From Desulfuromonas sp. AOP6 (GTDB taxonomy: Bacteria; Desulfobacterota; Desulfuromonadia; Desulfuromonadales; SZUA-540): 64,000 bases of DNA. Below the pieces are notes generated by a model, which saw only the letters and a program-made list of their open reading frames with translations, was not told the DNA's origin and ran no database searches. The position numbers and the translations under genes are program-made. The stretch covers positions 558,001-622,000 of the forward strand of contig NZ_AP022810.1 in the NCBI RefSeq assembly GCF_009731355.2, in the 5' to 3' direction. Positions within the stretch are counted from its first letter, which is position 1. Each line of letters begins with the position of its first letter. Shown here in pieces: positions 7,608-9,423 of this stretch.

Positions 7608-7764
7608 GGGAATCCTTTCTAAAGAAGGTGCGAAACACGCAGTTGCTTTTATTGTAACGCCTGAACTGATGCGTGGGTAGATAGGTTTTAGAACTTCTGT
7701 GTCTAACTGTGATATTCACAGGCGTTTGGTGTTGTTGCATAGTGCAACTCAGGAATTTCCTGAG

Positions 7765-7794
7765 TTGACCTGCTGTTTTGATTTGATGTATAGA
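7765..7794 (+). promoter_or_regulatory. Sigma-70-type promoter for the GEMM-I riboswitch transcript
   Basis: TTGACC (7765-7770), an 18-base spacer and TATAGA (7789-7794) place the start near 7801, about 20-30 bases before the aptamer. The rest of 7608-7764 shows nothing I can assign. Confidence 0.5.
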
Positions 7795-7822: not shown

Positions 7823-7971
7823 AGCGTTTTCCGATAAGAGCAAAGTCAGGGTAACCTGGCGACGCAAAGCTTCAGGCCCTTGAATTGAGGGTGGCTGAGC
7901 TGCCGAAGAAAGCGCCAGAGAATGCCTGTCATTCTTCTTGGCCCTTCTTCATTTTGAGAAGGGCCTTTTTT
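7823..7971 (+). ncRNA. GEMM-I riboswitch, predicted cyclic AMP-GMP (GEMM-Ib) type, with terminator platform
   Basis: The conserved core is complete. AGAGCAAAG (7837-7845) is followed by P1b GUCAGG / CCUGGC closed by a GUAA tetraloop of GNRA type (7851-7854), then the invariant GACGCAAAGC (7861-7870). The second arm, with a tetraloop-receptor region and GGCUGAGCUGCCGA, ends near 7906. Aligned on the invariant GCAAA, the position equivalent to Vc2 G20 is an A (base 7839); this change is known to shift ligand preference from c-di-GMP to 3',3'-cGAMP in Geobacter GEMM-I RNAs. The expression platform is an intrinsic terminator (GGCCCTTCT 7940-7948, AGAAGGGCC 7957-7965, then six T). It controls the lipoprotein at 8116. 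Class call is firm; ligand call is an inference from one base. Confidence 0.88.
7940..7971 (+). terminator. Riboswitch-controlled intrinsic terminator
   Basis: A nine-bp perfect stem GGCCCTTCT / AGAAGGGCC with an 8-base loop and a T6 run, lying 34 bases after the aptamer and about 145 bases before the regulated start codon. The leader from 7972 to 8115 contains further small stems (for example GCCTTCTTATGAAGGC) but no ORF. Confidence 0.85.
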
Positions 7972-8115: not shown

Positions 8116-9423
8116 ATGAAGATTAGGCAGTTTGCGGCAATTCTGTTGGCCAGTTCGCTGGCCCTGGGTGGATGTGGTGGTGGCGGCGGTTCTTCTTCCG
8201 AGACGACCTCTACCGTAAGCGGTGTGGTTGCCGATGGTTATCTGGTAGGCGCCACCGTATTTCTGGACAAAAACGGCAACATGAAGCTGGACGAAGGGGA
8301 GCCTACCGCCAAGACGCTTGAAGGCGGCAAGTACACCCTGGAGGGAACCGATCTGGACAAGCACCCCATTATTGTTCTGGTAACAGCCGGAACCATTGAT
8401 GAGGACTCCCCGACCACCCCGATTGAGAACCCTTACGTTCTGGCGGCTCCTGCCGGCAAGCCTGCCTTTATCAGCCCCGTAACAACCCTGGTGCAAAGCG
8501 CCATCATGAAGGGCCAAACCCTGGCTAATGCAGAAGCCAGCGTTCAGGCCGCTATCGGCAAAGACAGCGCAACGGCCCTGTATGCCGACTACATCGAGGG
8601 CGCCGATACTGTCCTGCACACTGTCGCTCAGAAGATCGCGGAAACCTTTGCCATGGTTCAGACTGACCCGACTGTTGCTCAGTTCACCGAGCAGGAGCAG
8701 TTCGTTTACGCTACCAAGATTATCAGTGAAAACTTGACCGCCATCGTTGCCGATCCGGTAAATTTTGACGGCACGACCGTTGCGATCAGCCCTGAGACCG
8801 AGATTACCGCGTCCCTTGGGTTTACGACCGAGAACGTGATTGGCAAAACCTTTATTGCCGGGCAAGATCCGCAAGATCTTGTTGTTTTTCAGTTGAACGC
8901 CGATGGTACTCTTTATGAGGTGACGAACGACACCGGTACTGTGGATTACATGGGAGCGTTTACGGGAACCTGGAGCGTCACAGGTGGCACATTGTCCATG
9001 AAGTACGACCAAGATGGCTCCACCGTTACCTTGAATGTGGCCACAGCCAGCAACGGTGCTATCGAAGTCGTCGGCACTGACGAAGGCGGTGCTCTCGCTG
9101 GAACGGTCTATGAAGCCGTGACTGCTCTGCCTGCAGGGTTTGGCGGGACCTATTCCGCTCTGATCGAGGGTGACTCCACGCCGGAGACGGTTGAAGTGGT
9201 CATTAACGCCGATGGTTCGGGAACCTTTGGTGGCGGAGCAATTACCTGGGTATGGGAAGCCCCGGCCCTCAAAATCATGGAAGAATATCTTGATTTGGGT
9301 GGCAATCCCGTCATCGATGAAACGACTTGCATTCTTTATCCCTCGTCCACCGGGGATTTCGTGAAGGCTGTTTTTTACAACCTTGATTTTAACGAAATGG
9401 GAATGGCTACGTTCTCCAGATAA
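8116..9423 (+). CDS. Riboswitch-controlled lipoprotein of unknown function
   Basis: A 435-residue secreted lipoprotein. The signal peptide ends in lipobox LALGGC with the lipidated Cys at 20, followed by a Gly/Ser linker, so it should be anchored in an envelope membrane. Residues about 31-85 look like a carboxypeptidase-regulatory / SdrD-B-like beta module (SGVVADGYLVGATVFLD) with an EF-hand-style Ca2+ loop DKNGNMKLDEGE (50-61). The rest is Thr/Val/Gly-rich and low in Cys, which suggests beta-rich extracellular domains. RBS GGGAGG lies eight bases before the ATG. It is monocistronic behind a GEMM-I riboswitch, consistent with a surface function governed by a cyclic dinucleotide. I do not recognise a named family. 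Confidence 0.8.
   Translation: MKIRQFAAILLASSLALGGCGGGGGSSSETTSTVSGVVADGYLVGATVFLDKNGNMKLDEGEPTAKTLEGGKYTLEGTDLDKHPIIVLVTAGTIDEDSPTTPIENPYVLAAPAGKPAFISPVTTLVQSAIMKGQTLANAEASVQAAIGKDSATALYADYIEGADTVLHTVAQKIAETFAMVQTDPTVAQFTEQEQFVYATKIISENLTAIVADPVNFDGTTVAISPETEITASLGFTTENVIGKTFIAGQDPQDLVVFQLNADGTLYEVTNDTGTVDYMGAFTGTWSVTGGTLSMKYDQDGSTVTLNVATASNGAIEVVGTDEGGALAGTVYEAVTALPAGFGGTYSALIEGDSTPETVEVVINADGSGTFGGGAITWVWEAPALKIMEEYLDLGGNPVIDETTCILYPSSTGDFVKAVFYNLDFNEMGMATFSR

Follow-up and report, generated by a model that had tools for sequence, protein, structure and literature searches.

Related riboswitches

The RNA described here lies in a window of 64,000 bases (558001-622000 of the single 3,269,909-base contig of Desulfuromonas sp. 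AOP6) and has its nearest described relatives among the GEMM-I (c-di-GMP-I, RF01051) riboswitches. With Vc2 it shares, in what we take to be the Vc2 numbering, the whole aptamer, the GNRA loop, the G21-C46 pair, A47 and C92, and it differs from Vc2 in having A for G at position 20. The canonical core and A20 are also found together in the laboratory mutant Vc2-G20A (PDB 4YB1), whose structure with bound cGAMP was used in PMC6274999; unlike that mutant, the window copy is natural and possesses a P1 and an expression platform of its own.

The GEMM-Ib riboswitch of Geobacter pilM (PDB 4YAZ) has in common with the window copy an A at the position-20 equivalent (A14), the C75 that pairs with the ligand in known structures (PMC9262584), and a Hypr enzyme encoded in the genome. 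In the solved Geobacter RNA C15 pairs with G40 beside A14 (PMC6274999), and the pilM terminator uses the aptamer's own strand, an ON layout (PMC9262584). The window copy, by contrast, has neither the C15-G40 pair nor the ACUAAA/GGCGGAAAG core, and its terminator is independent of the aptamer and predicted to be OFF-type. In this it resembles Cd1 of Clostridioides difficile, a c-di-GMP-I OFF switch in which the terminator (T+H) can coexist with P1 and the antiterminator is formed by the A strand; Cd1 differs in its host, in its ligand, c-di-GMP, and in G11 at the position-20 equivalent (PMC9262584). Outside Geobacter, the cluster 3 c-AMP-GMP aptamer of Desulfobacca acetoxidans likewise carries A in a c-di-GMP-I-like aptamer, but it is in tandem with a cobalamin riboswitch and was predicted to be ON (PMC9481103). 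The cGAMP riboswitches whose regulation is described in PMC6456294 and PMC9262584 (the GEMM-Ib genes of G. sulfurreducens, and pilM) are ON. Our literature search recognised no cGAMP OFF switch, and an earlier description in the two founding PNAS 2015 papers is possible.

The leader and its aptamer

The first-pass annotation had placed a complete GEMM-I riboswitch and its terminator in this leader and had called for a covariance-model scan. When the whole 64-kb window was searched with cmscan, RF01051 was the sole Rfam match above its family cut-off, and the terminator too lies where it had been placed (Table 1).

Table 1. Features of the leader and of the gene that follows it, in window coordinates
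Feature	Position	Strand	Details
Inverted repeat, perfect, 10 bp	7746-7766		AACTCAGGAA-T-TTCCTGAGTT; touches presumed -35
Possible sigma-70 promoter	7765-7794	+	TTGACC-N18-TATAGA; by eye
P1 5' strand	7824-7831	+	GCGUUUUC; pairs with 7908-7915; identical in G108
GEMM-I aptamer	7829-7907	+	RF01051, 64.2 bits (cut-off 35), E 2.9e-10, full model length
A at presumed Vc2 G20 position	7839	+	cmscan alignment
P2 with GUAA tetraloop (7851-7854)	7845-7860	+	cmscan alignment
C92 equivalent (C75 of pilM)	7903	+	alignment of GCUGCCGAA; presumed Vc2 numbering
P1 3' strand (A strand)	7908-7915	+	GAAAGCGC; common to P1 and antiterminator
Predicted antiterminator	7905-7950	+	18 pairs, 7905-7924 with 7930-7950; minimum free energy (MFE) fold of transcripts ending 7950-7959
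Intrinsic terminator	7940-7971	+	stem 7940-7965, 10 pairs, 6 G-C; T tract TTTTTT 7966-7971
Lipoprotein gene	8116-9423	+	ORF, 435 aa

In the cmscan alignment A7839 is paired with the model G just ahead of G7840-C7841, which bears out the earlier placing of an A, not a G, at the G20 equivalent. GCAAA (7840-7844) follows directly on its 3' side, so the register is clear. We take A7839 to be position 20 of Vc2, and G21, C46 and A47 presumably correspond to 7840, 7865 and 7866. This numbering agrees with the pilM numbers given in PMC6274999. The G7840-C7865 pair is found in the window copy, and the alignment places GACGCAAAGC at 7861-7870. The GNRA tetraloop, GACGCAAAGC, C92 and the site upstream of an ORF are thus all as RF01051 has them, with A7839 replacing the G20 ligand contact of the c-di-GMP form. 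Of the marks of GEMM-Ib, the window copy has A at position 20 and lacks the pilM-type core with its C15-G40 pair, a mark taken from the solved member that may not hold for every validated GEMM-Ib. The window copy is a genuine riboswitch and belongs to a known class; its A20 form is unlike the solved Geobacter form, and its ligand and polarity are predictions. The main reading, to which we assign a probability of about 0.5 from sequence and folding models, is that it would be a transcriptional GEMM-I riboswitch responding mainly to 3',3'-cGAMP and OFF for the lipoprotein gene.

Upstream, nothing in 100 shuffled versions of the window matched the inverted repeat, even with three mismatches allowed. 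The repeat is kept with one central change ahead of the corresponding riboswitch in G108, a second genome of the same genus, where a further partial match occurs 3 kb upstream (C1:1382280). It is probably an operator, that is, the binding site of a regulator. The promoter-like sequence beside it is also kept in G108 (TGTATAGAA); a consensus promoter scan did not report it, and had as its sole match another site at 7715-7743. A terminator scan over 551 bases picked up the stem at 7940-7965 with its T tract; it gave three terminator-like sites in all, against 0.7 expected. From the end of the terminator to the start codon there are 144 bases, and a further structured RNA in this gap was considered and rejected as chance: PyrR, GP20-a and L10 leader (E 1.6-2.9) were, like all Rfam matches in the 601 bases searched, sub-threshold, and the lowest E there was 0.37 (Histone3, minus strand).

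The lipoprotein gene

The ORF downstream, which had already been annotated as a lipoprotein gene, has, by eye, a lipobox-like LALGGC, and GGGAGG ahead of its ATG, and its product is a probable lipoprotein. Residues 256-310 match Lipocalin_4. The next gene downstream is msrA-like and on the opposite strand, and the lipoprotein gene appears to stand alone. Its N-terminal ~165 residues define a family with matches in 46 of 136 genomes (E <= 0.001, some of them weak). At 12 of 20 fetched loci of this family a GEMM-I aptamer lies upstream on the strand of the gene; the eight loci without one comprise four stretches shorter than 3 kb and four longer ones, and the closest relative (G106, 47%) is among the latter. 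G20 (GGCAAA) is seen in ten of the 12 aptamers, from which a usual input of the family would be a c-di-GMP-type switch; that of the window gene is A20. In the named genome collection there is one relative, from an uncultured Geobacter MAG; the locus fetched for it, 7,435 bases with no more than 3 kb ahead of the gene, gave no Rfam match.

A canonical core with A20

The first-pass annotation had it that G20A turns the c-di-GMP sensors of the Geobacter group into sensors of cGAMP. This proved too simple, as the solved Geobacter class has further core differences (C15-G40). A pattern for the pilM core (ACTAAAC..GGCGGAAAG) has matches in 112 of the 277 genomes from the class Desulfuromonadia. Of these, 10 are among the 136 in the host's order and 102 among the 141 from other orders; the host genome has none. 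The canonical core with A20 (AGCAAA..GACGCAAAGC) is found in 59 of the 136 genomes of the host's order and in 82 of the 277 of the class, some of the latter by chance. Since the window copy combines the canonical core with A20 and is without the pilM core, it is the natural counterpart of Vc2-G20A and not of pilM. AGUAAA/GACACAAAG was also tried as the Geobacter A20 core, and was rejected in favour of the pilM core; its 21 matches fall in 19 of the 277 genomes, and about four look aptamer-like by eye. Copies with the pilM core also occur as tandem pairs, ~135-230 bases apart (L282, L283, L286, L287, L288, L290, L299 and L300).

Comparison of 92 A20 with 56 G20 canonical copies disclosed no second fixed difference that accompanies A20. 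The strongest differences are at positions -5 and -6 before A20, with a weaker one at the first pair of P2. Positions -5 and -6 are the equivalents of A9 and G8 of pilM, both of which are contacts there (PMC6274999). The G is present in 83/92 A20 and 33/56 G20 copies, and the A in 78/92 and 31/56. This greater uniformity hints that the pocket of the A20 copies may be under selection of its own.

Ligand and signal enzyme

A20 likely makes 3',3'-cGAMP a ligand. In PMC9481103 it is position 20 that distinguishes the c-AMP-GMP variants from those for c-di-GMP, and there in-line probing of the natural A-variant of the c-di-GMP-I aptamer from D. acetoxidans is described as giving markedly better c-AMP-GMP binding. 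The genome search for a Hypr-type GGDEF enzyme, which had been proposed together with cGAMP as the ligand, was also productive. Of the 25 GGDEF matches in the host genome most have the canonical Asp; in one, L028, the base-contacting residue is Ser instead of Asp (GHLAGS) and GGDEF is present as well; it belongs to a GacA-like protein of 456 residues with a receiver-like start. Ser with GGDEF is the Hypr signature of PMC6456294. A second Ser-bearing domain, L031 (YKTGS, GGDDY), matches the second, Ser/GGDDF type represented by GSU1937 (PMC8835794).

Of the 136 genomes of the host's order, 118 encode a GacA homologue (E <= 1e-60). All 70 of the loci inspected have Ser or Thr, 59 as read by script and the other 11, with Ser, by eye. 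Among genomes with A20 the homologue occurs in 57 of 58, and among the remaining 78 in 61 (Fisher p 5e-4, the genomes not being independent), an association that rests mostly on one family. From this count G015 was left out, because the one place where it matches the pattern spans 40 bases and is no aptamer; G004:C187 and G069:C84 also resemble chance hits, but their genomes have other matches. Family f7 (14 genomes) is without a GacA homologue, shows no A20 pattern match and has G20 matches in 4 of the 14 genomes, a distribution in keeping with cGAMP as the ligand, though it amounts to little more than one evolutionary event.

A20 and the Hypr enzyme gene thus speak for the ligand named in the first-pass annotation; the loss of c-di-GMP sensing that a conversion implies accords less well with the Desulfobacca A-variant, for which PMC9481103 reports 'perhaps a slight weakening' towards c-di-GMP, most of the affinity being kept. 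That result leads to the principal alternative, which we regard as unlikely though deserving of attention: the same OFF-type device might have c-di-GMP as its physiological ligand, or respond to both equally, A20 merely broadening the GEMM-I pocket. The identity of the A20 and G20 cores except at position 20, the predominance of canonical GGDEF domains in the host and the frequency of G20 copies ahead of the lipoprotein family all agree with it. Against it stand the retention of A20 in the same-genus copy, the absence of A20 from the GacA-less f7, and the G8/A9 equivalents, more uniform in A20 than in G20 copies. By analogy with the Desulfobacca RNA the window copy may possibly be a dual sensor. 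If both dinucleotides were bound, the A20 copies would be a natural intermediate in a change of ligand.

Expression platform and polarity

While the transcript grows from 7914 to 7944 the predicted minimum mostly contains P1 (with another fold at 7929-7932); it then contains the antiterminator at 7950-7959, and P1 plus the terminator from 7965 on. With P1 forced, transcripts ending at 7950, 7956 and 7959 reach -41.7 kcal/mol, against -46.9, -48.1 and -48.1 for the antiterminator, which is thus ahead by 5-6 kcal/mol over this interval. At 7962 there is a near tie (P1 -47.7, antiterminator -48.1), and on completion of the terminator stem (7965) P1 plus terminator stands at -57.4 and the antiterminator at -50.1 kcal/mol. 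The antiterminator takes up 9 of the 10 bases of the terminator 5' arm and 6 of the 8 of the P1 3' strand, and the A:T duplex was equalled by 39 of 2000 shuffles. By its architecture the platform looks OFF-type; the first-pass annotation had given no polarity. The full-length minimum is P1 plus terminator even without ligand, so that the OFF response would depend on kinetics.

Under the main reading the aptamer would respond mainly to 3',3'-cGAMP, probably with some binding of c-di-GMP. Bound ligand would lock P1 and so bar its 3' strand from forming the antiterminator with the terminator 5' arm, and transcription would stop in the T tract. When ligand is absent the antiterminator would form first and the lipoprotein gene would be read. 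A rise in the signal would then mean less of a probable surface lipoprotein.

Platforms were compared across copies with a heuristic script, which mis-picked at least one hairpin (L003). Two earlier versions had been replaced: the first, which admitted hairpins as long as 75 bases, chose spurious long stems, and the second could place the J1/3 site in no more than 60 of the 94 A20 copies. From 99 A20 places listed, G069:C84 left out, 94 distinct sequences passed the filters; 92 of them had a J1/3 site that could be placed, and 91 a U tract. Among these 91 the independent terminator was the stronger in 82, the 3' arm paired with the aptamer in 6, and neither applied in 3. The 61 G20 copies behaved similarly (U tract in 52; 48 independent, 1 aptamer-using). 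For 37 pilM-core copies, a subset of those matched, the outcome was 31 aptamer-using and 1 independent among the 34 with a U tract; this reproduces the ON layout known from the literature, which makes the set a positive control. A complement to the A strand within the 5' half of the terminator scored in the best 5% of shuffles in 36 of 82 A20 copies (~4.1 expected; the other 46 fell outside), in 35 of 48 G20 copies and in 0 of 1 pilM-core copies. For a single copy the antiterminator duplex is at the edge of chance (rank 10/200 shuffles for the window, 14/200 for G108).

A second alternative is that the window copy, like the riboswitches of Geobacter pilM and pgcA, is an ON switch for cGAMP. 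The precedents favour it: pilM is ON (PMC9262584), GEMM-Ib-controlled genes drop on deletion of gacA in G. sulfurreducens (PMC6456294), and the c-AMP-GMP case of PMC9481103 was predicted to be ON by its authors; the six A20 copies scored as aptamer-using terminators count against the OFF reading. We nevertheless hold it to be improbable, as the 5' arm of the pilM and pgcA terminators is the aptamer 3' side, whereas the window 3' arm prefers its independent strand (-16.7 kcal/mol) to the weak pairing with the aptamer 3' side (-7.9).

Returning to the OFF reading, we would tentatively, and at somewhat less than even odds, extend it to the class: the Desulfuromonadia may have two oppositely wired A20 cGAMP-type forms, a pilM-core ON form, common in genomes from other orders, and a canonical-core OFF form widespread in the host's order. 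One second messenger would then have opposite effects on gene expression in the two lineages. If the A20 copies with the canonical core do act as OFF switches for cGAMP, this messenger would repress genes as well, GacA regulons outside Geobacter could not be read by analogy, and the Rfam grouping as c-di-GMP-I would hide both ligand and sign.

The copy in the congener G108

G108 contains a matching riboswitch (L107) with the operator palindrome, P1, antiterminator and terminator all kept. Over 7824-7971 the two differ at 15 of 148 positions, with no gap. Five of the differences fall at tested pairs (7855, 7915, 7919, 7936 and 7964), and all are one-sided; every tested pair (P1, P2, 21-46, 22-45, antiterminator and terminator, P3 being left out) is nevertheless kept, as is A20. 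Two G108 transcripts, one cut at the corresponding place and one longer by 6 bases, give the same antiterminator fold. The full-length minimum of G108 contains the terminator and is without P1. Downstream lies the gene for a different lipoprotein, presumably TraT-like, and the 3' flank differs as well. The switch is conserved though the gene differs, and either the regulated gene may have been swapped or the switch may have moved. That the window copy is degenerate or unregulated, its terminator attenuating constitutively, would suit the terminated full-length minimum without ligand and the differing downstream genes of the two congeners, but is highly improbable given the conservation of aptamer, P1, antiterminator and terminator in G108 despite a different gene and 3' flank.

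Other GEMM-I copies

The host genome has seven GEMM-I matches, with A at position 20 in the window copy, L002 and L003, G in L001, L006 and L007, and C in L005. As read from the ORFs, L001 precedes an operon whose third gene encodes a paralogue of the window lipoprotein (43%, residues 1-161). On the same basis L006 precedes proteins with CxxCH motifs, and L002 (C1:1280740-1280815, + strand), an A20 riboswitch, lies ahead of a protein of ~1000 residues that contains the GGDEF domain L014. The latter arrangement suggests a link between cGAMP and c-di-GMP signalling. L005 (C1:1137077-1137166, - strand), with C at position 20 (AAAACGCAAA), precedes a membrane signalling-like protein of ~710 residues. 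A C20 GEMM-I copy is kept in G108 (L117, G108:C2:5729-5818, + strand), and these two C20 copies are possibly a further ligand variant.
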